Assembly: GCA_015494715.1 (NCBI GenBank)
Contig: WGAT01000040.1
Location: 1-43,998, forward strand
Direction: 5' to 3'
Source of the DNA: Campylobacterota bacterium
GTDB taxonomy: Bacteria; Campylobacterota; Campylobacteria; Campylobacterales; Nitratiruptoraceae
Length of the DNA: 43,998 nucleotides
In this document: positions 644 to 31,623 of the stretch, one piece after another
How the letters are laid out: each line of letters opens with the position of its first letter
Numbering within the stretch: the stretch's first letter is position 1
Position numbers and translations under genes: made by a program
Notes under the pieces: model-generated
Database searches by the model: none
Told to the model about the DNA's origin: nothing
What the model saw: only the letters and a program-made list of their open reading frames with translations

Positions 644-2317
644 ATGGGAAGAGTCGCTGTCATATTGATCCTTTTTTTCTCTTTTGCCTCGGCTAAGTGG
701 TGTATATACCATGCAATGCAAAAGAGGATATACCAAAATGAAGATAAAACTTTTTACTCCAATTTTCCCCATGGAACTATTATAAAAAGGCGGGGGTGGT
801 ACTGGTTTATCTCCGGTCCGTATGATACGAAAGACAAAACTCTCCAAATGCTTCGTTTGGCTAAGAAATTACATGCTGACGCCTATATGAAACCTTGCCG
901 TGGCCTTTGGCACAATACCAAAAAACTCCAAAGTAAATATAAAAAAGAGCAAACAAGGCAAAAAAAAAGCGCTCAAAAACCGCATACTGCCATCATATCC
1001 TCTTCCCCTATGCCCCAAAAATTCTCATTGACCCAGCAAATCTCGAAACAAGAGGATCAAAAAAAAGAAGAGGAGAAAAAAGAGCTCTACTACTCTTTGA
1101 GTTTTGAGGAGTTTTTGCATCGGCTCTTAAATTATGAGTATGGCGCCAAAAATATCGACTATCGACGAAAATTGGAAGAATTAGAGGCGGTGTTGGAGCA
1201 CAATATATACGATTGGGATATTTTTGCCAATGTGACGGCCGGATACAGCAAATTTATCGATTACGATCTTGCGACTAACAAGGAACTCACCCTCAATGGA
1301 GGAGTAGGGATCCAAAAACGGCTTTTTGATAAGGGATATTTGCTCAAAGAGCGTATTGAAGCGCTAAAAAAGCGTTTGGCCAAGCTGCGCTCTATTCGAG
1401 ATAAAGATAAACTAGCTTTATATGCGTTACAAATTTATATGGATGCGTATGCCAATCAGCAAATCAAAGATATTTATCAAAGACTCTACTTCAATCAAAA
1501 GGCTTTTTTTAGCCTCATTTCGGAGCGGTTTAAAGTAGGACTAGCTGGTAAAGTAGACTATATTGACGCCAAAAACGATTTACTCTCTATCAAACGGGCC
1601 TTTTTGGATAAAATCTATGATACGATGTATAGCGATTTTGTGATACGCAACGCTATCGGATTAGATGTGGGAAAGCCTGTTCGGCTGCAAGAGTTTGGTT
1701 TGATGGCAAGAGAGGGAAGTTTAGAGTCACTCTATCAAAAAGCCTTGGAAAAAAATCCAGATATAACCATCCAACGCTACTTGTTTGAGCTGCAAAAAGA
1801 GTATCTCCAACAAGAAAAAAACGCCCACTACCCCATACTTGAACTCTCTACAGGAGTTTCATACGAATATAAAAAAGATTTTGGCACTACTCCTCATAAA
1901 AGTGCAAAGGGACTCAATTATAATCTAGGATTAAACATGAAAATCCCTCTGTATGGCCCGGAGGTCTCTAGCGAAGCTTTACAAAAGGAGAAGATCAAGA
2001 CGCTTGTGCAAAAAAATAGTCTGCTACAAAGCATCAAAGAAAAGGCTCGCCAAATACATCGATATTACAATGAGATAGAGCGTATAGACCGCACCCTCGA
2101 AATTATACAAGAGCAACAAGCCCTTATGCAAGAGAAGCTTAAACTCGTCAAAGAGCGTTATAAAAGCGGTCTTGCTAGCTATAGGCAATACTCCGATGCC
2201 TTGGCAGAATTACTCCGTCTAAGCGAAGAGCGCTATATGCTCCAAGCGACCCGCGTGCGGGATGAGGGCATACTTGCAATCCTTCAAGGAAAGCATCTTT
2301 TTTATGGCGAGGATTAA
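644..2317 (+). CDS. TolC-family outer-membrane channel with N-terminal SPOR-like domain
   Basis: 557 residues. Signal peptide at residues 1-17 (cleavage after ASA). Residues about 18-85 resemble a SPOR domain (KWCIYHAMQ ... GWYWFISGPYDTKDKTLQMLRLAKKL), the fold that binds denuded peptidoglycan. A charged linker rich in Lys and Gln follows to about 145. Residues about 150-557 are TolC-like: long helices with two repeated halves, and short strands such as FANVTAGYSKF and LNYNLGLNMKIPLYG. TolC proteins form trimeric channels across the outer membrane and periplasm. As first gene of an operon with pelF and pelG, it is the likely export channel. The Shine-Dalgarno is weak (GACCGG). The TolC part is firm; the SPOR label is moderate. 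It may partner the adaptor encoded at 9884-10876. Confidence 0.82.
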   Translation: MGRVAVILILFFSFASAKWCIYHAMQKRIYQNEDKTFYSNFPHGTIIKRRGWYWFISGPYDTKDKTLQMLRLAKKLHADAYMKPCRGLWHNTKKLQSKYKKEQTRQKKSAQKPHTAIISSSPMPQKFSLTQQISKQEDQKKEEEKKELYYSLSFEEFLHRLLNYEYGAKNIDYRRKLEELEAVLEHNIYDWDIFANVTAGYSKFIDYDLATNKELTLNGGVGIQKRLFDKGYLLKERIEALKKRLAKLRSIRDKDKLALYALQIYMDAYANQQIKDIYQRLYFNQKAFFSLISERFKVGLAGKVDYIDAKNDLLSIKRAFLDKIYDTMYSDFVIRNAIGLDVGKPVRLQEFGLMAREGSLESLYQKALEKNPDITIQRYLFELQKEYLQQEKNAHYPILELSTGVSYEYKKDFGTTPHKSAKGLNYNLGLNMKIPLYGPEVSSEALQKEKIKTLVQKNSLLQSIKEKARQIHRYYNEIERIDRTLEIIQEQQALMQEKLKLVKERYKSGLASYRQYSDALAELLRLSEERYMLQATRVRDEGILAILQGKHLFYGED

Positions 2318-3797
2318 AGTAGTCTGGACGGGGGAGGGTACCTATCCTTATGCCACGGGTGGCGTGAGCACTTGGGCCGATTTGCTTATCAAAGAGCTCA
2401 AAAACATCGATTTTGTTTTATTGCCTATTATGATGCATCCGTATATGCAGACCAAGTATGAACTGCCTCCTAATGTGGTCGATACCATCAATGTTCCCTT
2501 ATGGGGGACGGAGGAGCCCACCGAATATATCCGCAATATCCCCTTTTCCCAAATCTACCAAGCCAAGATCAACACCCAAAAATCAAAAGATATCAGAAGA
2601 TTTGAGCCTATTTTACTAAAAGTACTCGATCATATCTATCGGGTGGATGAGGATATGGAGGGGCTTGGGGATGCGCTGTTTGAATTTTATGAGTACTTTT
2701 TGGAGTATGACTATTATGAGGTTTTCCGTAGCGAAGAGGTATGGGATATCTATAAAAGCTATGTTTTGCACTACTATTACGGCCAAGAAAATCCCCCAAG
2801 CCTTTTTGATATGATCGAGGGGCTTCGCTATCTCTTTCGCTTCTTCATCTCTTTACTGCCCCAGCTGCCCCAAGCGCCGATTTATCACTCCTCCGCCGCC
2901 GCCTTTTGCGGTTTGCCCTGTATTATCGCCAAAAAGCGCTACAAAAGCCGTTATTTGCTTACCGAGCATGGGATTTACATCAGAGAGCAGTATCTCTTTG
3001 CTTCCAGACAACAGCTGCCTTTGCGTACCAAAGAGTTTTTACTCGGGCTTATTACCACTGTCTCCAAACTCAACTACTATTTTGCCGACGTGATCTCTCC
3101 CGTGTGCAACTACAACAAACGCTGGGAGGTGCGCTGGGGCGTGCCCGAGAGCAAGATCCACACCATCTACAACGGCATCGACGTGCTCAAATTTCGCCGA
3201 TATGAAGTGGAGCGAGATCCAAGACCTACGGTGGTCATGGTGGCTAGACTTGATCCGCTCAAAGATATCGAGACCTATATCCGCTGTGCCGCCATCGTTG
3301 CCAAAAAAGTGCCCGATGTACTTTTTAAACTCTATGGTCCGGTAGTCAATGAAGAGTATTACAATAAGTGCCAAGATTTGGTACAAGAACTCAAGATAGA
3401 GAATAATTTTTCCTTTATGGGTCCCACTTCCAATCCGGCCTATGCCTATAACGAAGCCGATGTGGTGATGCTCACCAGCATATCTGAAGCCTTTCCCTTT
3501 GCCGTCATCGAGGCGATGGCTTGCGAGAAAGTGGTCGTATCCAGCGACGTGGGCGGAACCAAAGAGGTATTGGAGGGATATGGTTTTATCGTCAAGCCAA
3601 AAGATTACGAGGCTTTCTCCAAGCATGTAATCTATCTTTTGCAAAATCCACAAATCGCTCAAGAGATGGGTATAAAAGCCAGACGGGTCATCGTGGAGGG
3701 ATTTACAACCGAGGATATGGTCAATAACTATTGGCAGATGTATAAAAGACTCTATGATGAGTATGAAGCCCAATATGAGGGGATTGGATATGAGTGA
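2304..3797 (+). CDS. pelF: PelF-type glycosyltransferase (GT4)
   Basis: 497 residues from the ATG at 2304 (MARIKVVWTGEGTYPY). An in-frame ATG at 2262 would add 14 residues inside the TolC gene and is less likely. The N-terminus carries the PelF hallmark TYPYATGGVSTW. The C-terminal Rossmann half has YNGIDVLKF, VARLDPLKDIETYI and the GT4 E-x7-E motif EAFPFAVIE. PelF is the cytosolic polymerase of the Pel polysaccharide, using UDP-HexNAc sugars and working with PelG at the inner membrane. The length matches PelF of Pseudomonas (about 507). It overlaps the TolC stop by 14 bases and the pelG start by 8, which indicates translational coupling. Confidence 0.92.
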   Translation: MARIKVVWTGEGTYPYATGGVSTWADLLIKELKNIDFVLLPIMMHPYMQTKYELPPNVVDTINVPLWGTEEPTEYIRNIPFSQIYQAKINTQKSKDIRRFEPILLKVLDHIYRVDEDMEGLGDALFEFYEYFLEYDYYEVFRSEEVWDIYKSYVLHYYYGQENPPSLFDMIEGLRYLFRFFISLLPQLPQAPIYHSSAAAFCGLPCIIAKKRYKSRYLLTEHGIYIREQYLFASRQQLPLRTKEFLLGLITTVSKLNYYFADVISPVCNYNKRWEVRWGVPESKIHTIYNGIDVLKFRRYEVERDPRPTVVMVARLDPLKDIETYIRCAAIVAKKVPDVLFKLYGPVVNEEYYNKCQDLVQELKIENNFSFMGPTSNPAYAYNEADVVMLTSISEAFPFAVIEAMACEKVVVSSDVGGTKEVLEGYGFIVKPKDYEAFSKHVIYLLQNPQIAQEMGIKARRVIVEGFTTEDMVNNYWQMYKRLYDEYEAQYEGIGYE

Positions 3798-5343
3798 TCC
3801 TTTGGCCAAACTCTATCAAGAGATCACAAAAGATAGAGGAGAGCCCCTTGATATATGGGAGATAGCCGCTCTTTTGGAGGTGTACGGCATTCGGGACGTG
3901 GATGCCAAAGAGTATGGGTATGGGGATGTTTTTGAGCTGGCAAAGGCTTTGTGGCGATACAAAGATATCAAAAGCTATCCCAAGCGATCCCTCGCCGCCC
4001 AGCAGTCGCCTCCTCCTTTCAAGGTTCGGGTACGAAGAAATTTTATTAAAGGGTTGGCTTTTGCCATGCCGATGCTACTGCAAAGCGTCGCCACCATATT
4101 TTTTGGATTTGCCTTATGGTCTAATATCCATATGGACGTGACTGAAGCGACCATTATTGCTTTGAGCACCTTTTTGGCTATGATTCTCACTGGCGGGCCG
4201 GCACAGGTAATTGGCCGAAAAGGGCTGTACTATTTGAAGATGAACGAATACATTTTAGCCGCTAAAATCATAGAGCTGCTTTTTAGCATAAGTATGCTCA
4301 AAATTATCTTTATATCTTTGCTTTTTGTGCTGTTTAATTGGATATTTGGGGTTTTGGATTGGCATCTTTTTGTTATTTTTATTGTAATGTTTTTTTTATT
4401 GAGCACCCTGTTCCTCTCCGTCTCCATCTATTACGTTTTTGAGGAATACGAGAAGATTTTGTACTTTTTTTTCTATGGACTTGGATGGGTCTTTTTGCTC
4501 CACTATCTTTTAGGACTTGAGTATCTCCAAGCCCAATTTGTAGCTCTTGCCATTTTGGATGCGAGTATTATCTATTTCGCTTACAAAAAGCTTCGAGATC
4601 TTCGCGACAAAACCCAATCCGAGGGTGAGATCCTCCCTCGTCCTTCTATGCTTGTGTATACTCTTATCCCTTTTTTCGTCTACGGCTTTTTATACTTTTT
4701 ATTTTTGACGATCGATCGTTTGATCGCTTGGAACGCCAATTCGACCAATCAGGGATTTTTTTTATGGTTTGACGCCAGATACGAGGTGGGCTCCGATTTG
4801 GCTTTGTTGGTCTTTGTGATTTTGATGGGTGTAGTGGAGGTGGTGGTATACGAGTTTTTATATAAGCTCAACGACAAAGTCTTTGGATATTCCGTATTTG
4901 AGTTTGAGCGATTTAATCGCTCCTTTTTAAAATTTTACAAGAAAGTCAACACTATTTTTATTATCGTCACGCTTTTGTCGATAATAGGGGTGTATGCTTT
5001 GGTTTTGTTGCTCTTGATGTTTGTGGAAGAAAGAGCGCTCCCTTTTGGGGGGTATGGGATCTTTGTCTTTTTTGTAGGTTCTTTGGCTTTTGCTTTTTTG
5101 GCTAACGGCTTGATGAACGCACTGATACTTTTTTCTTTTTCGAGACAAAAAATAGTGGTCAAGGGAGCATTTTTTGCGGTATTGATCAATTTTGTATTGG
5201 GCATGGTACTTAGCCGTACTCTAGAGCCCTATTTTGCCGTGTTGGGACTTTTAGCCGGAAGCGTGGTCTTTTGGTATGTGACTTTTCGTTTTTTGATCAA
5301 AATGTTTGGCAAGCTCGATTATTACTACTATTCGGCATATTAA
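3790..5343 (+). CDS. pelG: PelG-type polytopic membrane transporter
   Basis: 517 residues from the ATG at 3790, which overlaps the pelF stop (ATGAGTGA) and is preceded by GAGGGGATTGG. The ATG at 3754 lies deeper in pelF and is less likely. A soluble N-terminal stretch of about 75 residues precedes roughly 12 membrane segments of MOP-exporter type. Motifs typical of PelG are visible, such as TGGPAQVIGRKGLY, LTIDRLIAW, FDARYEVGSDLALL and the C-terminal LDYYYYSAY. PelG is the inner-membrane translocation partner of PelF. The soluble N-terminal extension is longer than I expect for PelG and could stand in for contacts normally made by PelD/PelE; that is inference. Confidence 0.9.
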   Translation: MSDPLAKLYQEITKDRGEPLDIWEIAALLEVYGIRDVDAKEYGYGDVFELAKALWRYKDIKSYPKRSLAAQQSPPPFKVRVRRNFIKGLAFAMPMLLQSVATIFFGFALWSNIHMDVTEATIIALSTFLAMILTGGPAQVIGRKGLYYLKMNEYILAAKIIELLFSISMLKIIFISLLFVLFNWIFGVLDWHLFVIFIVMFFLLSTLFLSVSIYYVFEEYEKILYFFFYGLGWVFLLHYLLGLEYLQAQFVALAILDASIIYFAYKKLRDLRDKTQSEGEILPRPSMLVYTLIPFFVYGFLYFLFLTIDRLIAWNANSTNQGFFLWFDARYEVGSDLALLVFVILMGVVEVVVYEFLYKLNDKVFGYSVFEFERFNRSFLKFYKKVNTIFIIVTLLSIIGVYALVLLLLMFVEERALPFGGYGIFVFFVGSLAFAFLANGLMNALILFSFSRQKIVVKGAFFAVLINFVLGMVLSRTLEPYFAVLGLLAGSVVFWYVTFRFLIKMFGKLDYYYYSAY

Positions 5344-5352
5344 GGAGAGTGG

Positions 5353-6255
5353 ATGTATAGATTTTTATTGCCTTTTTTATTTTTTGCTTTAATGCTAGCC
5401 GGATGCGCTTCACATAATAAGGATCTGGACAAGCAGATAGAACAGGCCCAAAATATTCACATCATAACTACGACTCTTGCATCTCCCGTAATAGAAAAAC
5501 GGAGTAAAAATATATTCCAAGCATTCCCTTTTATTTTAGAAGAGTATGATGTACGAGGAAAATTTAGCGACGATTTTTACAATAGGCTCCATCTAGTCTA
5601 TACCGCACGAGCCATCGATAAAATCGATTTTTGGAAATTGCAAAAAGAGCCAAAAAGTCTTGATTTTATCTATGTCTCGCCAGTGTGGATACGGGATTTT
5701 AAAAAAGTCTCAAAAGATCTTTTTGAGGATTTATGCTACTCGTACAATATCTCCAAACAAGAGCAAAAGATATTAAAAAAGTGGGTGGCTCAAGGGGGGG
5801 TGCTGTGGTTAGAGAGCGGAACCTACTCTACCAAGTACGATATCTTCAACAAACACGGAGAGATCGCCACGGCAACGATAGACCGCCTTATACGCCAAAG
5901 CCTCCAAGGCGTTCGTTTTTGGAGCTATCCCATCCACACGCATCTTTTTGCGAGTAAAAACCTCGATCCGATCAACTATGTGCCTACCAGCCAAACCTTT
6001 GTGGTCGATAGCAACAAATCGGTTTTTAAAGATATCAAACGCCTCAAAGTGGACATACGAAACTATCTTCAAAATAATTTCGTTATTTTAAGCAAGCCTT
6101 TAGTGGTGGATAAAAAAGGCGAACCTTTGGTAACAATGGTACAATACGGCAAAGGGTATGTGGTCAGCTTGCTGCCTTTTGAGTATAAAGATGTCTATTA
6201 TGATGGAGAGCTACTACGATGGGAGCTTCTTTTTTATCTGTACGATCGTCACTGA
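5353..6255 (+). CDS. lipoprotein with class I amidotransferase-like fold
   Basis: 300 residues. Lipoprotein signal peptide with lipobox LAGC (Cys18), so the protein is membrane-anchored and faces the periplasm. The Shine-Dalgarno AAGGAGAG sits just before the ATG, 9 bases after pelG. The body reads like the DUF4159/ThuA-type glutamine-amidotransferase fold: DFIYVSPVWIRDF, then ILKKWVAQGGVLWLESG, then a C-terminal VTMVQYGKGYVVSLLPFEY. No catalytic Cys is visible in the expected place, so enzymatic activity is doubtful. I do not recognise a named family. Its place between pelG and a large membrane protein suggests a periplasmic accessory to polysaccharide synthesis or export. Confidence 0.65.
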   Translation: MYRFLLPFLFFALMLAGCASHNKDLDKQIEQAQNIHIITTTLASPVIEKRSKNIFQAFPFILEEYDVRGKFSDDFYNRLHLVYTARAIDKIDFWKLQKEPKSLDFIYVSPVWIRDFKKVSKDLFEDLCYSYNISKQEQKILKKWVAQGGVLWLESGTYSTKYDIFNKHGEIATATIDRLIRQSLQGVRFWSYPIHTHLFASKNLDPINYVPTSQTFVVDSNKSVFKDIKRLKVDIRNYLQNNFVILSKPLVVDKKGEPLVTMVQYGKGYVVSLLPFEYKDVYYDGELLRWELLFYLYDRH

Positions 6256-6267
6256 CAAGGCCGCCCC

Positions 6268-8457
6268 TTGTCTGAGGGATTTATCGATTTTTCTGTCGTC
6301 GATGCTATCGTATGGATAAATATCACGAGCTCAATACTCCTTTTTGTCGTCGCTTATCTGTACTTTGTTGCGCTTCCTCGCTGGCTTTTTCCCCAAAGGT
6401 GGACTGGAGGTGGTTTAGAAAATCTTATCTCCAACATTTTGTATATGGTAGCTTTTACGGAGCTTGCGGTCCCTTTGATGGTCTTTATGAAAATATTTTC
6501 CCTCTTTTCTTATGCGGCTCTTATTCTCTTGACAAAATTTGCTTTTTTGAGATGGTACTACAAAATCTCCGTCAAGTCCTATTTAGAAGAGATCAAGAAT
6601 CGCTTACTAATCGCCCTGTTTGACTTTTTAGATCATGCCCAAGAGATGCTTCAAAGAGCCTATAAAAGAGCCAAAAGGGGTTTTGCGTCCTTTTTTAAAG
6701 AGCTTACCCCCTACCTATTTTTTAAAAAAGCGCTCATTTTTATTACTTTTGCCTATCTTCTTTACCTCATCGGAGAGCGCTGTTTTTTATCTTTGGCCAA
6801 TCCTTTATCCGATACGAGTCAGTTTTTTGAGTGGGTAGCCAGACTCAACGACAATATTCTTTATGCCGACAACAAAACGGCTGGAGCCGACTTTTACGGC
6901 CTTTCGGTCTTTGTCTTTATCCTCAATACCCTCACCCATATCGATACGGTGGTGCTTTTCAATATTTACCCGCTTCTTTTGATCTTTTTTCTTTTTTTGG
7001 GCGTCTATTTCGTGCTCAAACGCTTTACCCTCTCCTCTTTCCTCGCTCTTTCTACGCTAATAATCTATGGGGTATTGTTAGCCTCTCCGTGGGGCGAGTA
7101 TATCGCCACGCCCATTAGCGTTACCAGCAGACCGGAAATATTGCAGTTTCTTTTTTTCAAGTTTTATACCATTCCCCAGCACTACTTTCTACACCCAGAG
7201 CTTCATTTGGAAAATGTCTCCATGACCCCTTATTTTCGCTACTTTAGCGGGATGGCGTATGAATTTTCCTCCACTCTTTTTTTGATCAACCTTTTTTACC
7301 TTATCAAGGCTTTGGATACGGGACGCAGCAGATATCTGATCAACTATACCCTCTCATTGATGCTGGTATTTATCTTTCACGGAGGGGGGGCCATCTCTTT
7401 GATCGTGCCAAGCATCCTTATCGCCTTGCACGCTTTTGTAAGTTTGAAGCTCTCTTGGAGCCTCTTGAAGCGGGGGATGCTCGCCATCCTTATCGCCGCT
7501 ATTTTTGGCAACGGCTGGATGCTCTCCGTCCTCAAATACGGCATCCCTCAAGACTTCGGTGCCGCCGCTCCCTTTTTGGATCGGCTCTTTGGTACCAAGC
7601 AGGCGATGAGCGAGATAATATCTGCGGGTATCGAAGAGGTCACCATCTCCCATCTGACGTGGCTGCACCTCTTTTTGGCGGCCTCGGCTCTGTTTTTTTT
7701 CCTCTTGGCTCGCTTTGGGAAAAAGGGGTTTTATTTTTCGAGCTTTTTACTCATTCCCCTTGGCTATTTTGTAGTTTATTTTAGTGAAAATCTTGGGCTT
7801 CCCAAGCTTGTCCACCCCTCAAGGGGCGTGGAGTATCTCTTTTTGTCCATCTCCATAGTGATCGCTTGCTATATCAGGTTTTTTGTCTGGGTACCACTTA
7901 AGATAGTTTTTAAGCAAAAAGCAAGAGCCATATTTATGGCATTTGTCTATTTGGAGCTTTTTTTGTTGGCCAATTTCGTACCCCAGTATAAAGAGAGCGA
8001 CAGATTTAAGCTCTTCATCAACGGAGTCCAATATACCGACATCCCCTACTTTTTGTACCAAATCATCAAATCCAACCGGCCCCTTACTTGGACGGTGGTC
8101 TCTTATGTGCAAGAGTATTCCAAGGTCTTAGGCAAGGGGTATATGATCAATGTCAACGAATTTTTGATAAAATACGACCCCACGGCCAGATATTTGACCA
8201 TTCCGACTCCAAAAGTGTATATCTTTGTCGAGGATATCCCAAATAACTATCGTGGAAAGGATGAATGGTATTATAGATGGCGGCCCGATATCGAAGCTAG
8301 GCTCAAAGAGTGGATAGCGATATACAGCGCACTGCACCCGAACAAAATAAAGCTTTTTGCTAAAAGCAACTTAGTAAGTGTTTACGAAATAGACAATAGC
8401 GATTATATGCGATGGCTCCAAAGGCAAAAGAATGTTTCACAATCCCCTTCTTTTTGA
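6268..8457 (+). CDS. large polytopic membrane protein, GT-C glycosyltransferase-like
   Basis: 729 residues. The only sensible start is TTG at 6268, spaced 7 bases after ACAAGG; the next in-frame Met is near residue 59. I count about 12-14 hydrophobic segments, with soluble stretches near residues 100-150 and a C-terminal soluble domain from about 590. The layout, with a loop after an early membrane helix (FFEWVARLND ... AGADFYGLSVF) and repeated aromatic helices, resembles GT-C enzymes that use polyprenyl-phosphate sugars, but I see no diagnostic DxD or ExD motif. It overlaps the next gene by 26 bases. It could alternatively be a transporter or a PelE-like scaffold. Gene certain, function uncertain. 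Confidence 0.6.
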   Translation: MSEGFIDFSVVDAIVWINITSSILLFVVAYLYFVALPRWLFPQRWTGGGLENLISNILYMVAFTELAVPLMVFMKIFSLFSYAALILLTKFAFLRWYYKISVKSYLEEIKNRLLIALFDFLDHAQEMLQRAYKRAKRGFASFFKELTPYLFFKKALIFITFAYLLYLIGERCFLSLANPLSDTSQFFEWVARLNDNILYADNKTAGADFYGLSVFVFILNTLTHIDTVVLFNIYPLLLIFFLFLGVYFVLKRFTLSSFLALSTLIIYGVLLASPWGEYIATPISVTSRPEILQFLFFKFYTIPQHYFLHPELHLENVSMTPYFRYFSGMAYEFSSTLFLINLFYLIKALDTGRSRYLINYTLSLMLVFIFHGGGAISLIVPSILIALHAFVSLKLSWSLLKRGMLAILIAAIFGNGWMLSVLKYGIPQDFGAAAPFLDRLFGTKQAMSEIISAGIEEVTISHLTWLHLFLAASALFFFLLARFGKKGFYFSSFLLIPLGYFVVYFSENLGLPKLVHPSRGVEYLFLSISIVIACYIRFFVWVPLKIVFKQKARAIFMAFVYLELFLLANFVPQYKESDRFKLFINGVQYTDIPYFLYQIIKSNRPLTWTVVSYVQEYSKVLGKGYMINVNEFLIKYDPTARYLTIPTPKVYIFVEDIPNNYRGKDEWYYRWRPDIEARLKEWIAIYSALHPNKIKLFAKSNLVSVYEIDNSDYMRWLQRQKNVSQSPSF

Positions 8458-9883
8458 AAAGATTCAAGATATCGTCTACGGCGTAGCTATAAACTTGTGG
8501 TGGGTTTTCGCTCTGTTGGCGCTTCTGTTTTTTTGGTTGACGCTTAAACTCTTTCGCTCCAAAGTCCAAAGCGAGGCGAAATTTGAAAGACAAAACAGAC
8601 TTTTGAAAGATTTTGCCAAGCTAAGCAAAACGCAGGATATGGAAAATTTCATTTTAGAATATGTGCAGAGTTTAGGAGCCGAGGGGGCGGCTTTGTATCT
8701 TCGTAGGGGAGATATCTTTATAATGCAAGCAAGAGCGCCTCAGACGATCTCGTGGGATACGAGGCTTTATCCAAAAGATATCGCGCAACAAGAAAAAAAG
8801 GGCATCTATGACGTTTTTTACCTTCTCTCGCCTCAAGAAGAGGTGGTCTTGGTGATCTATACCAAAAAAAGTGTAGATTTGGAGGAGTACGATGGTTTTT
8901 TGGAGATGATGTTGGCCCTCTACGCCCAGAGCCTCTCCCTTGCAAAAGGGCGGCATATGGCAAAAGTGTCCGATGCCTCCAAGTCCTTGCTCTCAAACGT
9001 AATGAAGCTACAATATGGGACGGAGACATTTTTGAAATTTATCGTCTCTTTACTTTTTAAAGCCGAAGGAGCTACGGGCGTCATTTTGAAAAATAGGGAA
9101 AAACCGGGCAAACAGGTTGTTTTCAAATCTCCACAAAAAGGAAAATACAGCAAAGTTTTTTATATACGAAATACCCCCTATATCCTAGAGCTTTACACAA
9201 GAGTCCCTTTGCCAAAGGAGAAGATCGCCGAGCTTGGGGCTTTTTTGGATCTTGCGGGAAGCTATTTTGAAAATATCAAAGCCAATAGCAAGATGGTGCT
9301 TAACTATATCAACTTTTTAAGACTCTCCAACCGGGCTTTGGAACTGCAAAGCCGATACTTTGCCAACCATTCCGAAAAAGTACGAATCGTCAGCGTAGAG
9401 ATCGCCAAAAATCTTTTTTTGGACGAGAAAGTCATAGATACCATCGCTTTGGGAGCGGAGCTGCACGATATTGGCATGGTGGGTAAGATAGAGCAGTTTT
9501 TAGACAGCGATAAGATTAAAGACAAAGATTTAGACCTTATTCGCTACCATCCAGTTATCGGAAGCGTCATCGTAGAGCCTATAGACAAGGTCTATCCGAT
9601 AGCTCCCATTATTCGATACCACCACGAAAGATATGACGGAAGCGGGTATCCTTACGGGTTGAGCGGCGATGAGATTCCGTTAGAAGCCCAAATCGTCGCT
9701 TTAGCCGAGTACTATGTGGGCGTCACCAGTCCAAGAGCGTACCGAAAAGCCAAAAGCCACGAAGAGGCCATTCAGGATATTCAAAATCAAAAAGATAAAC
9801 TCGTAGCCGCTTCAGTCATAGACGCTTTTTTGGAATCACACGAAAAGACGGCTAAGAAGTTGGAGCTGCTTGATATTAAGTGA
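8432..9883 (+). CDS. membrane-anchored GAF/HD-GYP protein with altered active site
   Basis: 483 residues. One membrane helix at about 20-41. A GAF-like segment lies at about 70-165 (GAEGAALYLRRGDIFIMQA), a second at about 195-285 (AEGATGVILKNREK), and an HD-GYP domain at about 295-475. HD-GYP enzymes hydrolyse cyclic di-GMP using a bi- or trinuclear metal site. Ligand positions seen: His313, His345-Asp346, His373, His397-His398, and GYP at 405-407. Two key positions differ from consensus: HDxGK reads HDIGM (Met349), and the late Asp of the VAD motif is Glu426 (ALAEYY). Activity may be reduced or lost. As last gene of the pel-like operon it probably links polymer synthesis to cyclic di-GMP, either as phosphodiesterase or as receptor. 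Confidence 0.85.
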   Translation: MFHNPLLFEKIQDIVYGVAINLWWVFALLALLFFWLTLKLFRSKVQSEAKFERQNRLLKDFAKLSKTQDMENFILEYVQSLGAEGAALYLRRGDIFIMQARAPQTISWDTRLYPKDIAQQEKKGIYDVFYLLSPQEEVVLVIYTKKSVDLEEYDGFLEMMLALYAQSLSLAKGRHMAKVSDASKSLLSNVMKLQYGTETFLKFIVSLLFKAEGATGVILKNREKPGKQVVFKSPQKGKYSKVFYIRNTPYILELYTRVPLPKEKIAELGAFLDLAGSYFENIKANSKMVLNYINFLRLSNRALELQSRYFANHSEKVRIVSVEIAKNLFLDEKVIDTIALGAELHDIGMVGKIEQFLDSDKIKDKDLDLIRYHPVIGSVIVEPIDKVYPIAPIIRYHHERYDGSGYPYGLSGDEIPLEAQIVALAEYYVGVTSPRAYRKAKSHEEAIQDIQNQKDKLVAASVIDAFLESHEKTAKKLELLDIK

Positions 9884-10876
9884 TCACTCGTTTTTTGATT
9901 TGACTTCGTAGACCGTTTTGTTTGGATTTTCTATGAAGTGCTCTTTTATGAATTTTTGCTCGTTTTTTTGTAAAAACACCGTTACGAGGGCTTTTGTCCC
10001 TTCTTGTAAGATATAGTTTTTATTGGGTATCTCCACCTCGGCGGTCATTCGGCCAAAATCTGGATCGACCACCATCACCACCCGTGAGATTTTTGCCTCC
10101 ACATGGTATGGAGGGGTGGTGAGAAAATCGACCTCGACCTTTTTGCCTTTTTTGATAAAAGGCAAAAGTCCCGGAGCGATTCCGGCTTTGACGATCACCT
10201 TGTCCAGATTGACGACGGTACCAAGTTTGCTCCCCTTGGTGACATAATCTCCGGGCTGGGTTTTTACATCGGCTATAAATCCGGATATATCGCTGCGCAC
10301 TTGACTTAAATAGAGCAAATGGCGTAGTTTCTTGAGCTCCGCGGCGGTATCGTTGATACGCTCTTTGAGGGAGTAGAGTTTTTCTTTTTTGATCTCTTCG
10401 TCTGCGTATTTGCTCTTTAAAGAGGAGGCGTAGGCATTTTTTGCGTTGTGCAACTCTTGCAAATCGCCATACCCTTTAGCTTTGAGTCGAGAGAGCTGCT
10501 CAAGATTGAGTCGGGCCATATTGACAAGGGCTAGATCCATCATATGCTGTTTGCTATGCCGGATAAAATGGGCGAACTCCTTAAGATATTGGAGCTCTTT
10601 TTGGATTCTTTGGATATCGTATTGGGTGATGGTAGTCTCGAAGCGAACTAACAGATCTCCTTTTTTGACTTTATCTCCCGAATGAATGAGCACCTCTTTG
10701 ACCCGTCCATCCATAGTGGCCAAGATATCCTCTTTTTGCGACGGGTAGACCTCTCCTTCGAGTCGGATGGTAATGCCTTCTTTGCTTTTTTTGATCTCTT
10801 TTTCTTCGGGAGTCTTGGCACATCCTCCCATAAAGAGAATCGCCGCTGCCATCCCCAGCAACGCCAATCGTCTCAT
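9884..10876 (-). CDS. lipoprotein membrane-fusion (HlyD/RND-type) adaptor
   Basis: 330 residues. Signal peptide with lipobox MGGC (Cys19). The order is typical of periplasmic adaptors: a first lipoyl half (LEGEVYPSQKEDILATMDGRVKEV), a helical hairpin with a coiled coil at about 90-195, a second lipoyl half (DISGFIADVKTQPGDYVTKGS), then a barrel domain with KGKKVEVDF. Adaptors join an inner-membrane pump to a TolC channel. No RND or ABC pump gene is adjacent; the nearest TolC is at the far end of the convergent operon (644-2317). The start overlaps the deacetylase stop (ATGA). The stop abuts that of the HD-GYP gene with no spacer. Confidence 0.88.
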   Translation of the reverse strand: MRRLALLGMAAAILFMGGCAKTPEEKEIKKSKEGITIRLEGEVYPSQKEDILATMDGRVKEVLIHSGDKVKKGDLLVRFETTITQYDIQRIQKELQYLKEFAHFIRHSKQHMMDLALVNMARLNLEQLSRLKAKGYGDLQELHNAKNAYASSLKSKYADEEIKKEKLYSLKERINDTAAELKKLRHLLYLSQVRSDISGFIADVKTQPGDYVTKGSKLGTVVNLDKVIVKAGIAPGLLPFIKKGKKVEVDFLTTPPYHVEAKISRVVMVVDPDFGRMTAEVEIPNKNYILQEGTKALVTVFLQKNEQKFIKEHFIENPNKTVYEVKSKNE

Positions 10877-11685
10877 ACTTTTCCTTTTGCGTACTCTTGT
10901 AAAATCAACTCAAATCGCTTTATACTCTCCCCCGTATTCGCAAAGGTGAGCACATAGGCCTTGTCCAATCGTACTTGGGAGAGAAATCTGCTCAACAGGT
11001 TTGGCAAAAGCTCATACGGATGTGTATAAATTATCGGTTTGATTTTTTGATTTGTTACGCAGCGAAAGAGTCTTTTTGTAATAAAAAGAGGCAGCATTCG
11101 CATATAAAAGCCACCGCTAAAGGGGATGAAGCACTTGGGGATAGGGATTTCGGTGATCTCTCCCGAGGGCGTGGCGATGACAAAGGGATGTTTTTTATCG
11201 ATGGTGTTGCCATACATATAGGTTTTAAAAGGAAAGTAGGAGGAGGAGTAGACAAAACCCATCTCTACGAGCGCTTCGTAGTAGCGCTTCTCAAATGGCA
11301 GGCTCCAGCTAGGACTTCGATACCCAAGGACTGGTGCCTCTATGATATCTTCGAGTATCTTTTTGGCCAAGGCGGTCTCTTTTTTCCATACTTCAAAAGG
11401 CTTTTGATAGACTAATTGATGATCGTACCCGTGCGAGGCTATCTCGTGGCCTTTTTGGTGCAGATTTTGAACGGCGTGGGGGAAACGGCGAGCAAAACTG
11501 CCAAGTACGAAAGCGGTCGATCGAAAGCCATAGCGCAAAGTCAGCTCATCCCATTTATCCAAAATGGCTGGGTAGTCGATGGCGAGCTCTTTTTTGGGCG
11601 TGATGCCAAAATTGGCGTCTTCTACCCTCTCCACATCGATCGTCAGCCAGATGGGATGTTGCAAATAGGTATCAGGCAGATACAT
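10873..11685 (-). CDS. polysaccharide deacetylase (NodB-type, XrtA-locus style)
   Basis: 270 residues from the ATG at 11685, chosen because GGAGGAGAG lies directly upstream; the longer frame to 11715 lacks this. NodB motifs are seen as LTIDVE (catalytic/metal Asp), SHGYDH (two metal His), YRSPSW (motif 3), and THPYEL (late His). The DVE rather than DDG form and the general order match the deacetylases of PEP-CTERM/exosortase exopolysaccharide loci. There is no signal peptide, so it probably acts in the cytosol or on a lipid-linked sugar. It overlaps the upstream flippase-like gene by 14 bases and the adaptor by 4. Confidence 0.85.
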   Translation of the reverse strand: MYLPDTYLQHPIWLTIDVERVEDANFGITPKKELAIDYPAILDKWDELTLRYGFRSTAFVLGSFARRFPHAVQNLHQKGHEIASHGYDHQLVYQKPFEVWKKETALAKKILEDIIEAPVLGYRSPSWSLPFEKRYYEALVEMGFVYSSSYFPFKTYMYGNTIDKKHPFVIATPSGEITEIPIPKCFIPFSGGFYMRMLPLFITKRLFRCVTNQKIKPIIYTHPYELLPNLLSRFLSQVRLDKAYVLTFANTGESIKRFELILQEYAKGKV

Positions 11686-12607
11686 CTCTCCTCCATAAAA
11701 AATCTTTGGTGGCAAAAAGGTACAGACTATAAAGCGTAGCGGGCAGAATGTAGAGTATTTGCAGCACCAAAGAGGCGCTTAACGCTTCTTCTTTTGGAAT
11801 GCCGTACCACCCAAGCGTTAGGATAAAAGCGGCTTGGAAAGTACAGATACCGCCGGGAGTCAAAGGAATGGCCGAAACGGCAAAAGCCAAGGTAGAGGCG
11901 ACGAATATCTGCCAAAGCTTAAGATCAAAATCGGTGGCTGTGAGGAAGAAGACGAAATTATTCAAATAATAGCTCCCCCAGACCGCCAGCGTCAAAAAAA
12001 AGAGAGTCTCCAGCCGCTTGGGCGTGAGGTTGGAGCGTATGATTTTATAGATTTTATACGCTAAGGCCCGTATTTTTGGGAAAGGGAGTAAAAAAAGGAG
12101 TTTACGGAAAAAAGAGGGGGAGTAAAACAGATAACCAAAAGAGAAAAAGAGGCCAAAGAGCAAAAGGGCTACGACAAGACCTCCTTGGCTTGGGAGTATA
12201 AAAAGGGCCGAAAAGAGGATCATCGCCGCCAAAACCAGTACGTCAAAAAGACGCTCTATAAAAAAATAGGAGGTGGAGTGAGCGATATGATGGCCTTCTT
12301 TTTGTTTCATATAGTAGATCTTTGAAAGGTCCCCAAGTTTTGCCGGAGCGAAGATATTAAGAAAAAAAGCGAGCATATTGGCCTCGAGGCTTGATATGAA
12401 AGAGTAGCGAAAATGGCTTAGATAATACCATCGCCACGAAATGACAAGATCGCTAAAAAAGACGGCAACAAAACTCAAAACCACTCCCCAAGGATTAAGA
12501 TGCTTGAGGCTTTGCAGAAGAAGCTCTAGATCGATATCCTTGAATATCCAGTAGACCAAAGCGGTCAGCAAAAGAAGCTTGAGGATTTTTATCGCCGATT
12601 TTTTCAT
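11672..12607 (-). CDS. flippase-like / lysylphosphatidylglycerol-synthase-TM family membrane protein
   Basis: 311 residues with about 8 membrane segments. The family signature is present: FAPAKLGDLSKIYYM followed by FFIERLFDVLVL, and a late PLTPGGICTFQAAF. This UPF0104/AglD-like family includes the membrane part of MprF and proteins next to glycosyltransferases; members are proposed to flip or move lipid-linked substrates. No soluble aminoacyl-transferase domain is fused, so it is not MprF itself. It starts at an ATGA overlap with the FemAB-like gene and is followed by the deacetylase, giving a membrane step beside a sugar-modifying step. Confidence 0.85.
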   Translation of the reverse strand: MKKSAIKILKLLLLTALVYWIFKDIDLELLLQSLKHLNPWGVVLSFVAVFFSDLVISWRWYYLSHFRYSFISSLEANMLAFFLNIFAPAKLGDLSKIYYMKQKEGHHIAHSTSYFFIERLFDVLVLAAMILFSALFILPSQGGLVVALLLFGLFFSFGYLFYSPSFFRKLLFLLPFPKIRALAYKIYKIIRSNLTPKRLETLFFLTLAVWGSYYLNNFVFFLTATDFDLKLWQIFVASTLAFAVSAIPLTPGGICTFQAAFILTLGWYGIPKEEALSASLVLQILYILPATLYSLYLFATKDFLWRRDVSA

Positions 12608-13494
12608 AAGTCCACGAGATACTTAGTAAGTTTTGGGCCTATGAAATCGGTAAAGATCAGAGGCAATTTACTCCATATTTTAGAAGCCAAAGCGTAGCTG
12701 GCGTAGATATCTTTTTGGGTGTCGGTGAGGATGTCGATCTTGACGGGGGAGGCACCAAAACGGGTTTTGAAAAAGTAGGTTCCTCCGTTGTAGGGGGAGC
12801 GGCCAAAATCGATGGTATGGATATCGGGCTTGGAGATGAGGTAGCGAATGAGCTCGTGATAGAGGAAATAGCCCGTACTCCCTTCGTTTTTGTGACGATA
12901 AACCCCTCCATACAAAAGGGTGGCTATGCCGTTGTCATAAAAAAAGAGCACGCCACCAACGGGCTCCTCTTTTTCGTTAAAGAGTATGAAGATATCCAGA
13001 TCTTCGCCAAAATTTTTGGCCAAATTGTAAAAAAAGGCGATGGGCATCAAAGGAGTGCCGTGGTGTTTGTAGATATCTCGCAAAATATCGTAAAAAGCTT
13101 CGATAAAGGAGTGGGCTCTTTGGAGGTGGTATCTTTGGAGCCGTTTTTCCTTATTGACGCTCCGTTTGGCCAGTTTCTTGTACCCTTTGGTGATCTCATC
13201 CAAACTCTTTCCTTCGATATCGAGGCGTAAAGTGACCGTATCGTGATCTTTGAAATCTTTGTACTCGAAGTTGAGGGTGCGGATTTGGTAATGATTATCC
13301 TTGGGCAATTCCAAAAGCTCGCGGGCCTCTTGGCTCGTTTTATCGGTGTAGTTGAGCAAAGGCAGATAGCTTAGATACTTTGTGCCAAAGCTTGGTTGGA
13401 CGATAAAGTCCATATACTCTTCAAATCCAAAGGTCTCAACGAGGCTTTTTTTCCACAATTGGATCAGTCGTGGCGTGTAACATACCCGTTTCAT
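12604..13494 (-). CDS. FemAB-like acyltransferase (GNAT fold)
   Basis: 296 residues from the ATG at 13494, which overlaps the DUF2304 stop by 4 bases; a GTG two codons upstream is possible. The double-GNAT plan of FemAB/XrtA-associated proteins is seen: an early half with FGFEEYMDFIVQPSFGTKYL, a charged linker (KRSVNKEKRLQRY), and a late half with PVGGVLFFYDNGIATLLYGG and TIDFGRSPYNGGTYFFKTRFGA. Proteins of this type transfer an acyl or aminoacyl group, and those in exopolysaccharide loci are thought to decorate the polymer. Donor and acceptor are unknown here. Confidence 0.82.
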   Translation of the reverse strand: MKRVCYTPRLIQLWKKSLVETFGFEEYMDFIVQPSFGTKYLSYLPLLNYTDKTSQEARELLELPKDNHYQIRTLNFEYKDFKDHDTVTLRLDIEGKSLDEITKGYKKLAKRSVNKEKRLQRYHLQRAHSFIEAFYDILRDIYKHHGTPLMPIAFFYNLAKNFGEDLDIFILFNEKEEPVGGVLFFYDNGIATLLYGGVYRHKNEGSTGYFLYHELIRYLISKPDIHTIDFGRSPYNGGTYFFKTRFGASPVKIDILTDTQKDIYASYALASKIWSKLPLIFTDFIGPKLTKYLVDL

Positions 13495-13817
13495 CGACAC
13501 TCTTTGGCTTCAATGATGGCGATTTCTCGTACGATTTTCGTAATGGCACGCTCGTCCATTTTGACTTTGGCGTATAGCACGGCGACGATCAAAGAGAGTA
13601 TGGCAATGGCTAAGTAAATAATCAGATCCACCCCTCGTCCGATCCCAAAAAAATGGGCTACCTTATCGGCTACCTTTGGGAACAAGATCAAATAGGCCAA
13701 AAAGATATAAAAAAAGATCACGCTCATGCGCTGATAGGTACGAAACCTGCTAGAAAAAGCGACAAGCAAAAAGACGACGCTGAGCACCACTATTAAAAAG
13801 ATTTTGATAAAGATCAT
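13491..13817 (-). CDS. DUF2304 small membrane protein
   Basis: 108 residues with three hydrophobic segments (near 3-20, 32-48 and 68-88) and a charged, helical C-terminus (KVKMDERAITKIVREIAII). Small DUF2304 proteins are regularly found directly beside DPM1-like family 2 glycosyltransferases, as here, and are presumed membrane partners of them. It overlaps both neighbours by 4 bases (ATGA). Biochemical function is unknown. Confidence 0.8.
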   Translation of the reverse strand: MIFIKIFLIVVLSVVFLLVAFSSRFRTYQRMSVIFFYIFLAYLILFPKVADKVAHFFGIGRGVDLIIYLAIAILSLIVAVLYAKVKMDERAITKIVREIAIIEAKECR

Positions 13818-14497
13818 TTGATCACCTTTGCTAAAATATATTCGACTATAATGTTAACGGAATTCATCATCGACTGGCCTTTGGAGATAGAGTACTCGCT
13901 GTATCGGATCGTACAGGGCAGCTCCATATATCGCATTTTGAGCCGTTTGATAAGGTCGATAATCTCTGAAGCGTGGCTCATACGATTTTGTGTAATGCTA
14001 AAGTCGGGAAATTTGGCTATATTGATGGCCCGAAAGCCGTTGTGGGTATCTGTGAGGGATACTCCGGTCAAGACTCTTTCCACAAAAGCGGCGACTTTGA
14101 GAAAATATTTTTTAAGGGTCGGGATATTTTCGGCTCTGCCCAAAAATCTGGAGCACAAGACGATATCGGCTTTATCTTCTCGCAATACTTGGACAAAACG
14201 CTCGATATCCTCGGCACAATGCTGGCCGTCCGCATCGAAAGTCACCACATATTTGCACCCCATCTTTTTAGCGTACTCTATCCCCGTCTCCAAAGCGGCC
14301 CCTTGACCCAGATTGACCACATGACGCAGCAGATGCACCCCCTCAAGACACGCTTGTGCGTAGCTATGGTCTTTGGAGCCGTCATCTACTACTACGATCA
14401 AATCCTTTGGCCGCACCCTTTTGAGCTCCTCAAGGGTTTGGCGTATCATCTTCTCTTCGTTGTACAGCGGTATGACTATGGCAGTTTGTGGTTTCAT
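13814..14497 (-). CDS. family 2 glycosyltransferase, polyprenyl-phosphate type
   Basis: 227 residues. The GT2 fold begins at once with AIVIPLYNEEKM, then VVDDGSKDHS (nucleotide-binding Asp) and FDADGQH (DxD metal site), and later TDTHNGFRAIN, as in dolichol/undecaprenyl-phosphate mannosyltransferases. There are no C-terminal membrane helices; the DUF2304 neighbour may supply the anchor. It probably charges a lipid carrier that later genes of the operon modify or flip. The start lies 68 bases inside the upstream tcdA gene. The Shine-Dalgarno is weak (AGAAAAGA), so expression may depend on coupling. Confidence 0.88.
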   Translation of the reverse strand: MKPQTAIVIPLYNEEKMIRQTLEELKRVRPKDLIVVVDDGSKDHSYAQACLEGVHLLRHVVNLGQGAALETGIEYAKKMGCKYVVTFDADGQHCAEDIERFVQVLREDKADIVLCSRFLGRAENIPTLKKYFLKVAAFVERVLTGVSLTDTHNGFRAINIAKFPDFSITQNRMSHASEIIDLIKRLKMRYMELPCTIRYSEYSISKGQSMMNSVNIIVEYILAKVIK

Positions 14498-30210: not shown

Positions 30211-31623
30211 GTGGTGAAAAGAGGAGTGTTGATCAGTCTGGCATTGGCTTCAATTTTAGGTATGGCGCAAGCGGGTGAATATAAAATGGGCGGTGGATTT
30301 GGCGGCATGACGAGTATTCAAAATCATGCGGAAGAGGCGGGAGAGAACTTGAGCTCCTCTTCAAGCTCCATAGCGGCTAGCGCAAGCTCTTCAGCTTCTA
30401 CACAGACAAGCGGAGGTATTGAGGCGCAAGCGAGCAGTAGCAGTATAGAACCGCAACCCGTAAGTAGCAGCTCCGCTCCAACTACCATAGAACCTATTGA
30501 ACTAAACCCCCAAGAGGGCGGTATGGAAACTGGTAGCGCCAGTTCTAGCATGATGGAGCCGCCGATGCAAGAGGCCAGAAGCAGCGCGATGAGTCAAGCG
30601 AGCAGCGCCCACTCCGAAGCTATGGAGCATATGCAAGAGGCTAGAAGCAGCGCGATGAGCCAAGCGAGCAGCGCCCACTCCGAAGCTATGGAGCATATGC
30701 AAGAGGCCAGAAGCAGCGCGATGAGTCAAGCGAGCAGCGCCCACTCCGAGGCCATGGAGCATATGCAAGAGGCTAGAAGCAGTGCGATGAGTCAAGCGAG
30801 CAGCGCCCACTCCGAGGCCATGGAGCATATGCAAGAGGCCAGAAGCAGTGCGATGAGTCAAGCGAGCAGCGCCCACTCTGAGGCTATGGAGCATATGCAA
30901 GAGACTGGTGAGAATAACAGCTCTATGCCGATGATGGGACATGGAGAACATAGAGGTCTCCTCGCTCTTATTGAAAATGGCACGATTCCTAGTGATCTAC
31001 CTCCTCAAATACACAATACTTTAAAAGAGGTGAAAAAAGCCGTAAAATTTTACAAACATCCAGAGCTTTTTGAGGATCTCAACATCACCGATGTAGCCAA
31101 TCTTGATCCACAGACTCTCCAAGAGATCCAAGAAAGGGTCCAAAGAGCAAAAGAGGAGCATATCGAGCGCGTAGAACAAAAATTATTGGGCAACAGACCA
31201 AAAGCCGAACTACCTATCGCCGGAGAGTTTGTGCGTATTGGTGCGGGCCAATATGATTGGGTTTTCGTAACCGAAAGTGGCCATGTATATAAACTAGCGG
31301 GTGTGAATAGCGACGGAAAATTTAAGTATGAGCCGCTCTCAGGTGTCCAAGGCATTATCGAGCGAGACGGCAAAGTTATATTTGAGCCACAAACGCAAAA
31401 TCTTCCCGTCACTTTACCCCAAACTCCTGTGGCTGGCTATCCATTTGCAAAATATAACGATCCTCAAGAGGATGGTTTTGATTGGATCGTCGTAACCAAA
31501 AGTGGAAGAGTCTATAAATTTGAAGGGTTTGACGAGGATAGCAAGAGTTTCTTCTACACTCCAGTCGATGGCTTAAAAGCGCAGCCAAAAGGCGATGCGG
31601 TAGAAATTTTACCCGGCAGCTAA
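30211..31623 (+). CDS. secreted Ser/Ala-rich protein with five 22-residue repeats
   Basis: 470 residues. GTG start at 30211 or 30214 after AAAGGAGAG. Signal peptide to about residue 20 (LALASILGMAQA). Residues about 45-105 are Ser-rich low complexity. Residues 119-228 are five 22-residue copies beginning MQEARSSAMSQ, each built as two 11-residue units, which suggests a long amphipathic helix. After a helical linker (to about 335), two related modules follow: one near 343-392 with YDWVFVTESGHVYKLAG, one near 418-468 with FDWIVVTKSGRVYKFEG. They appear to be a duplicated small beta domain. Family not recognised; an extracellular surface or matrix protein is a reasonable guess. Confidence 0.72.
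   Translation: MVKRGVLISLALASILGMAQAGEYKMGGGFGGMTSIQNHAEEAGENLSSSSSSIAASASSSASTQTSGGIEAQASSSSIEPQPVSSSSAPTTIEPIELNPQEGGMETGSASSSMMEPPMQEARSSAMSQASSAHSEAMEHMQEARSSAMSQASSAHSEAMEHMQEARSSAMSQASSAHSEAMEHMQEARSSAMSQASSAHSEAMEHMQEARSSAMSQASSAHSEAMEHMQETGENNSSMPMMGHGEHRGLLALIENGTIPSDLPPQIHNTLKEVKKAVKFYKHPELFEDLNITDVANLDPQTLQEIQERVQRAKEEHIERVEQKLLGNRPKAELPIAGEFVRIGAGQYDWVFVTESGHVYKLAGVNSDGKFKYEPLSGVQGIIERDGKVIFEPQTQNLPVTLPQTPVAGYPFAKYNDPQEDGFDWIVVTKSGRVYKFEGFDEDSKSFFYTPVDGLKAQPKGDAVEILPGS
30565..30894 (+). repeat. five tandem 66-bp repeats in coding sequence
   Basis: Units start at 30565, 30631, 30697, 30763 and 30829; a sixth begins at 30895 but diverges after MQE. Copies are nearly identical at DNA level, differing in a few third positions (GCC/GCT, AGC/AGT). 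All keep the same 22 residues. This points to recent expansion or ongoing homogenisation and to length variation between strains. Confidence 0.95.

Follow-up and report, generated by a model that had tools for sequence, protein, structure and literature searches.

Pel is a model exopolysaccharide whose well-studied Gram-negative form couples synthesis, c-di-GMP control and export through PelA, PelB and PelC; PelD is a membrane-anchored c-di-GMP protein with a degenerate GGDEF domain. In other Campylobacterota the canonical genes follow the order pelC-D-E-F-G-A-TPR-B, and the canonical loci of related genera encode a PelD with a GGDEF domain, a PelG scoring 471 bits, a GH114-type PelA and a PelB barrel. 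The Gram-positive pelDEA(DA)FG loci share the PelF-PelG core with the locus described below and also have other parts changed, but they keep PelD, PelE and the PelA deacetylase and are without an outer-membrane part (PMC7112168). The fungal galactosaminogalactan (GAG) cluster (Sph3 GH135, Agd3, Ega3) likewise ties a GH135 hydrolase to polymer synthesis, although its synthase is Gtb3, not PelF, and there is no outer membrane. The established endo-galactosaminidases of fungal GAG and bacterial Pel belong to the families GH114, GH135 and GH166 (PMC12054363).

The locus analysed here lies in a window (the whole stretch of DNA that was analysed) of 43,998 nucleotides. It shares with canonical Pel a PelF GT4 synthase gene adjoining pelG, a membrane-anchored, enzyme-derived degenerate protein that may plausibly bind c-di-GMP, and the availability of a deacetylase and a predicted GalNAc-specific hydrolase. 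It differs in lacking PelA, PelB, PelC and PelD as well as any convincing PelE, in its TolC/HlyD-type export parts, in its GT-C and lipid-linked sugar genes, in the use of GH135 for GH166 and of HD-GYP for GGDEF, and in the N-terminal extension of PelG. Compared with the Gram-positive loci, it lacks PelD, PelA and a convincing PelE, and it has a new outer-membrane exit. Most likely, this is a system like Pel, which would secrete a galactosamine polymer via different export, processing and control parts. Our main reading, to which we give a probability of about 0.6, is that of a Pel/GAG-like galactosaminan system in which the PelF/PelG core was kept, export, processing and control were rebuilt and periplasmic side chains were added.

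The six-gene operon and its distribution

Six genes occupy positions 644 to 9883 of the window:

644..2317, forward strand: TolC-family outer-membrane channel with a SPOR-like N-terminal domain after the signal peptide (PF02321, 96.9 bits)
2262..3797, forward strand: PelF-type GT4 glycosyltransferase (NF038011, 178.4 bits, cut-off 100)
3754..5343, forward strand: PelG-like 12-TM inner-membrane protein, N-terminally extended (PF16933, 34.3 bits, cut-off 29)
5353..6255, forward strand: lipoprotein with a class I glutamine-amidotransferase-like fold (lipobox LAGC; predicted structure)
6268..8457, forward strand: polytopic GT-C-fold glycosyltransferase of 729 aa (predicted structure; no sequence family)
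8432..9883, forward strand: membrane-anchored HD-GYP protein with predicted degenerate catalytic residues (PF13487, 93.7 bits)

Judged by homologue N-termini, the likely true starts of PelF and PelG are at 2304 and 3790; after this correction the channel and PelF genes overlap by 14 nt and those of PelF and PelG by 8 nt. Gaps of 9 nt and then 12 nt follow downstream of PelG, and the HD-GYP gene overlaps the GT-C gene by 26 nt. The preliminary description had reported this close packing, and the coordinates confirm it; all six genes run in a single direction. Its naming of pelF and pelG agrees with scores above the curated cut-offs, and its TolC-like and HD-GYP calls with the Pfam matches listed. 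The lipoprotein and the 729-aa protein matched no family above cut-off in Pfam or NCBIfam, and the folds guessed for them, amidotransferase and GT-C, were borne out by predicted structures. Promoter and terminator scans gave signals at chance level, and a PHROGs search returned no match.

The order channel-PelF-PelG-lipoprotein-GT-C-HD-GYP was found again in 12 of 16 Nitratiruptor genomes. Its Nitratiruptor loci are L031-L041 and L063-L069, several of them cut by contig ends; further loci come from vent genomes of Sulfurimonas-like and other types (L070-L076, L088-L090). The host itself is a Nitratiruptor, a heat-loving deep-sea vent genus, and one contig of this genus is near-identical (L063; PelG 94%, PelF 98%). 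Tabulation of pelF-pelG neighbours in Campylobacterota, which the preliminary description had proposed as a check, revealed that the six-gene order recurs across many independent contigs; misassembly or chance gene order was considered and ruled out by this repetition. PelG is present in all loci of the operon type. PelF occurs in 12 of the 16 Nitratiruptor genomes, and two of the four genomes without it are essentially complete. Among the genomes that have the operon, G003 and G005 are closed or nearly so. In a survey of the phylum, the lipoprotein was detected in 7 of 397 Campylobacterota genomes, representing 4 of 68 genera. A search of open-access literature turned up no description of the six-gene set under a different name.

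PelF/PelG lineage and the search for the other pel genes

The operon PelF scores 178 bits against NF038011, compared with about 600 or more for canonical PelF. Phylogenetic analysis placed all 20 operon-type PelF proteins (Nitratiruptor and vent orthologues) in one clade (100/100). Its sister is an actinobacterial group (98/91), and canonical PelF of Campylobacterota falls outside. The actinobacterial sister placement is less firm than PelF monophyly, because the actinobacterial rows drew composition and long-branch warnings. These actinobacterial loci were found by a scan with patterns from the N-terminal extension of PelG, of about 70 aa, which is common to them. The PF16933 match of PelG, at 34.3 bits, is nearly full length and the protein has 12 hydrophobic segments; the Sulfurimonas-type orthologue, at 20.4 bits, falls under the PF16933 cut-off. 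Comparison of PelG with canonical PelG by hhalign gave no significant score on shallow alignments, so its identity rests on the Pfam match, and a sequence search of the PDB turned up no convincing relative. The view that PelF and PelG mark a Pel-type synthase is kept, but the deep separate lineage of PelF and the extended N-terminus of PelG indicate that the pair was not simply retained from the local canonical Pel.

Profiles for PelA, PelB, PelC, PelD and PelE were built from the canonical Pel loci of further genera in the host's family and order, and were run on the window's genome (99.87% complete) and on four other carriers, two of which consist of only two contigs each. Canonical-Pel genomes served as positive controls and scored 87-1524 bits. 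By these sequence profiles, no match to PelA, PelB, PelC or PelD was found in the window's genome and the four other carriers. For PelA there was nothing in the five carriers, compared with more than 1300 bits in four controls; for PelB no full match, with one weak 16-bit TPR match in G014; and for PelD nothing in the window's genome, compared with 565-582 bits in controls. PelC gave nothing in the five carriers and 231-268 bits in controls G017, G019, G037 and G056, and is the weakest negative of the four, its profile having missed a fifth control (G027, no real match). PelE gave weak matches in all carriers, mostly of TPR type and at best 21 bits, compared with 439-464 bits in four controls. 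The PelD family PF16963 matched nowhere, controls included, and was replaced by the locus-derived profiles. Alignments by hhalign of the HD-GYP protein with PelD, of the lipoprotein with PelA and of the GT-C protein with PelE were shallow and gave no significant score; PelD- or PelE-like proteins by fold, without sequence likeness, may be present in the carriers. A canonical pel set elsewhere in the genome was rejected, since the PelA-D profiles were without match while the controls scored. The earlier statement that pelA to pelE are not beside pelF and pelG is extended to the genome: pelABCD were not found there, and PelE is represented by weak TPR-type matches only. Since PelA-D were searched for and not found, the system, despite having PelF and PelG, should not be filed as Pel proper on present sequence data.

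The convergent operon, the proposed side sugars and the proposed hydrolase

Six further genes converge on the first operon from the opposite strand:

9884..10876, reverse strand: HlyD/RND-type periplasmic adaptor with a lipoprotein signal (TIGR01730, 101.8 bits, cut-off 94.9)
10873..11715, reverse strand: CE4 polysaccharide deacetylase without a signal peptide (PF01522, 45.2 bits; DUF3473, 61.2 bits)
11672..12607, reverse strand: LPG_synthase_TM/flippase-like membrane protein (PF03706, 155.2 bits; TIGR00374)
12604..13500, reverse strand: FemAB/GNAT-like acyltransferase (PF13480, 37.8 bits)
13491..13817, reverse strand: DUF2304 small membrane protein (PF10066, 68.1 bits)
13814..14497, reverse strand: GT2 glycosyltransferase of the polyprenyl-phosphate sugar synthase type (L072 orthologue: PF00535, 85.7 bits)

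Of the 16 Nitratiruptor genomes, the same 12 have both the FemAB gene and PelF, and the other four have neither; one such exact co-occurrence has a chance of 1/1820 if kinship is ignored, the genomes not being independent. The HlyD-type adaptor was found in 11 of the 12 operon-bearing genomes and in none of the four others. CE4 and GT2 genes are kept beside the six-gene operon in other loci: the GT2, FemAB, CE4 and flippase genes directly follow HD-GYP and are co-directional with it in L072, L075 and L076, and in L071 the second gene set is co-directional with two other genes between. In L090 the six genes have no second set in reach. Because of this co-occurrence and partial co-directionality in other genera, we conclude from gene content that the convergent operon (9884-14497) belongs to the pelF system, of which the six genes make up just half. 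The six-gene unit of the preliminary description is real, but the convergent operon had been overlooked.

DUF2304 proteins are the usual partners of polyprenyl-phosphate glycosyltransferases. Together with the DUF2304 and LPG_synthase_TM proteins and the GT-C protein, the GT2 enzyme completes in one locus, by family and fold, a putative three-component glycosylation set. Such sets of GT2, small membrane proteins and GT-C form periplasmic side-chain systems, and GT-C/GT2/flippase sets classically decorate O-antigens (PMC11127046). The likeness to the GtrA/GtrB/GT-C system lies in the GT2, the small membrane or flippase candidates and the GT-C found in one locus; the differences are that the set is here tied to a PelF/PelG polymer, not to O-antigen, and that the GT-C enzyme has no known sequence family (PMC11127046). 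The model of the 729-aa protein (pLDDT 75, first periplasmic loop weak) gave high-probability Foldseek matches that were all GT-C (OST/STT3, AftA, PglB, ArnT), at fold level only with TM-scores of about 0.3, and its sequence had no convincing relative in the PDB. The GT-C gene lies within the pelF operon in all complete loci, and L065 has three GT-C copies. By analogy with the three-component systems, we infer that the Pel-like chain receives periplasmic side sugars.

The CE4 gene adjoins the six-gene operon, and CE4 motifs were seen in its product by inspection. Lacking a signal peptide, the enzyme may act on a lipid-linked sugar instead of the polymer. ArnCDT-type pathways remove the acyl group from a lipid-linked N-acyl sugar before the sugar is transferred, and a cytoplasmic CE4 beside a GT-C/GT2 set recalls this step. 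The CE4 and FemAB proteins also resemble XrtA/PEP-CTERM EPS proteins.

In five Nitratiruptor genomes a Spherulin4/GH135 gene lies upstream of the operon, and most of its products have a signal peptide. In the window's genome it is unlinked (G000:C97:36030-36653, just after pnp; PF12138, 127.6 bits); in G003, 41 kb separate it from pelF. In this genus, the one tested, GH135 is present in the same 12 of 16 genomes as PelF and absent from the same four. The protein matches the solved Sph3 structure 5c5g (E 1.5e-9), and 11 members of the genus show no variation at the D-E and E positions that align with the active site of Sph3. GH135 enzymes cleave alpha-1,4-GalNAc polymers (PMC12054363). The actinobacterial sister loci contain Spherulin4-like ORFs (L085, L086) and an Agd3-like deacetylase (L082) beside PelF, a further likeness to the fungal GAG cluster. 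The polymer is probably GalNAc-based, with the co-occurring GH135 as best, though indirect, support, and the PelA hydrolase role appears to be filled by this unlinked, putatively secreted enzyme. The earlier proposal that synthesis was kept while export and control were replaced is supported, and an apparent GH135 in the hydrolase role is added to it.

Export, control and competing readings

Both outer parts of a tripartite TolC/HlyD system, the outer-membrane channel (PF02321) and the periplasmic adaptor (TIGR01730), are present. A search of the locus revealed no gene for an inner-membrane ABC/RND pump or energy source; because none is encoded there, we know of no close precedent for a polymer that PelF/PelG would push along a TolC/HlyD route. 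Among Nitratiruptor channel orthologues, the OEP domain was found in 12/12 and the SPOR-like domain in 8/12 (best E 5.5e-5); the L090 channel has an SH3 domain. In the Sulfurimonas type the channel had no detectable SPOR/SH3-like domain, and the lipoprotein orthologues of these other genera end in an OmpA peptidoglycan-binding domain (PF00691). This swapping of cell-wall-binding domains suggests that channel and lipoprotein may be parts of one outer-membrane complex. The lipoprotein model (pLDDT 80) matched GATase-like domains of glycosidases in Foldseek with probability 1.00, likewise at fold level only, and its sequence had no convincing relative in the PDB. The mixed alpha/beta domain of PtPelA has been compared to ThuA and PhzE and proposed to act in sugar binding or in PelA-PelB interaction (PMC12022489). 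The lipoprotein fold is of the same broad class, and we hypothesise from the model that the two could be equivalent.

Alignment of 13 HD-GYP proteins, numbered as in PmGH (PMC4159591), showed that all retain the HD and HH histidines, and that in all of them the lysine of HDIGK (Lys225) is replaced by Met, the metal ligand Asp305 by Glu, and Asp308 is lost. Replacing K225 or D308 of PmGH by alanine has roughly the impact of removing metal ligands, and D305A keeps some activity (PMC4159591). A degenerate catalytic site is predicted for the HD-GYP protein, and this loss suggests that the protein may be a c-di-GMP receptor, like PelD; a degenerate enzyme as putative c-di-GMP receptor parallels PelD. 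The window's genome has 13 GGDEF domains. The proposed role of the HD-GYP protein as replaced control part stands as to family, with the predicted degeneracy added.

From the computed gene content, conservation, PelA-D absence, co-occurrence, folds and lost HD-GYP residues, the polymer chemistry, side chains, export path and c-di-GMP control can be pictured as follows. PelF would polymerise a UDP-amino-sugar, probably UDP-GalNAc, and PelG would carry the chain across the inner membrane. The GT2 enzyme and the DUF2304/LPG-type flippase would make and flip an undecaprenyl-phosphate donor, from which the periplasmic GT-C would add side-chain sugars; the CE4 and FemAB-like enzymes would modify the donor sugar or the polymer. 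Trimming of the chain would fall to a secreted GH135 endo-alpha-N-acetylgalactosaminidase, which would stand in for the PelA hydrolase domain. The TolC-like channel, HlyD-type adaptor and amidotransferase-fold lipoprotein would replace PelB/PelC as an assembly anchored to peptidoglycan via SPOR, SH3 or OmpA domains, and the degenerate membrane HD-GYP would sense c-di-GMP as PelD does with its degenerate GGDEF. We suggest more tentatively, at somewhat less than even odds, that this is a second, independently assembled route, with a PelF/PelG lineage shared with Actinobacteria, a pump-less TolC/HlyD-type conduit, a new GT-C family decorating a cationic galactosamine biofilm polymer in the periplasm and a dead HD-GYP receptor.

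The PelF and PelG scores, far below canonical PelF and just 34 bits for PelG, would also fit a pair that makes a polymer without galactosamine, or a glycan attached to the cell (capsule, S-layer, LPS decoration), with the likeness to Pel ending at the GT4/MOP pair. The two unassigned families and the XrtA/PEP-CTERM similarity of CE4 and FemAB point the same way. Exact co-occurrence with a hydrolase family that cuts alpha-1,4-GalNAc polymers, and the Spherulin4/Agd3-like genes beside the sister actinobacterial PelF, argue against this reading, which we consider unlikely. Ordinary Pel with PelA-E diverged past recognition, the lipoprotein being a PelA/PelC remnant, HD-GYP PelD and the channel PelB, appears very improbable: PelF and PelG are real, the ThuA/PhzE-like domain of PtPelA shares its broad fold with the lipoprotein (PMC12022489) and PelD is comparable in anchoring, degeneracy and ligand, but the families of the channel, the HD-GYP protein and the GT-C protein are unrelated ones. 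Moreover, profile comparisons with canonical PelA, PelD and PelE lacked a significant match, canonical Pel is fully recognisable in sister genera, and the PelF tree sets the operon lineage outside it.

Little credence is also given to two neighbouring systems, in which channel-PelF-PelG alone would make an exopolysaccharide and GT-C/GT2/FemAB/CE4 would modify LPS or glycoproteins. The classical O-antigen role of such sets (PMC11127046), the convergent arrangement in Nitratiruptor and the missing second set of L090 favour this separation, against which stand the GT-C gene inside the pelF operon, the second set running co-directionally behind HD-GYP in L072, L075 and L076 (in L071 after two genes), and FemAB tracking PelF across 16 genomes. 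A distinct Pel-like system, as first proposed, is supported by the kept PelF/PelG and the pelABCD not found, with the correction that the six genes are not the whole of it.

As a probable galactosaminan system whose export, processing and control were rebuilt, the locus suggests a portable PelF/PelG module that can be combined with another exit, another type of c-di-GMP receptor and another hydrolase, so that the essential and the exchangeable parts for polymer synthesis become testable. Additionally, it gives a likely role to two unassigned families, the GT-C enzyme and the amidotransferase-fold lipoprotein, and provides a candidate matrix polymer for vent Campylobacterota.

Genes accompanying the PelF operon, and other features of the window

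Across 16 Nitratiruptor genomes, a gene for a secreted hydrolase shares its presence or absence with the PelF operon, to which it is not linked in the genome that holds the window (G000).

C97:36030-36653, elsewhere in G000 (= L091:7973-8707): GH135/Sph3-like hydrolase, secreted, directly downstream of pnp

The operon-bearing loci of other Campylobacterota encode a protein that matches no known family; its gene adjoins the flippase gene and, in L088, is flanked on the other side by the HlyD adaptor.

L072:20115-21518 and L088:381-1805: protein of about 470 aa

Two further features lie in the window. In the second, a 22-residue repeat, HMQEARSSAMSQASSAHSEAME, occurs about five times, almost unchanged from copy to copy.

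3-551: IS605-type TnpB fragment with Cas12f1-like domain, at the contig edge, immediately 5' of the operon
30211-31623: repeat-bearing ORF with signal peptide

Variation among compared loci

The GT-C gene was tandemly duplicated in one Nitratiruptor locus (L031:11919-16509), both copies being broken at the identical position into ORFs of 496 and about 170 aa. Another (L065:9014-17002) holds three diverged GT-C paralogues; two of them precede the HD-GYP gene and the third follows it. The PelF proteins of L044 and L045 (570-582 aa) have an additional insert within the second half and are otherwise canonical.

Actinobacterial loci

A PelG N-terminal extension is common to the PelF/PelG-like loci of Actinobacteria (L080-L087), and Spherulin4 or Agd3-like genes are found close to some of them. 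These loci possibly represent a Gram-positive GAG-like cluster.
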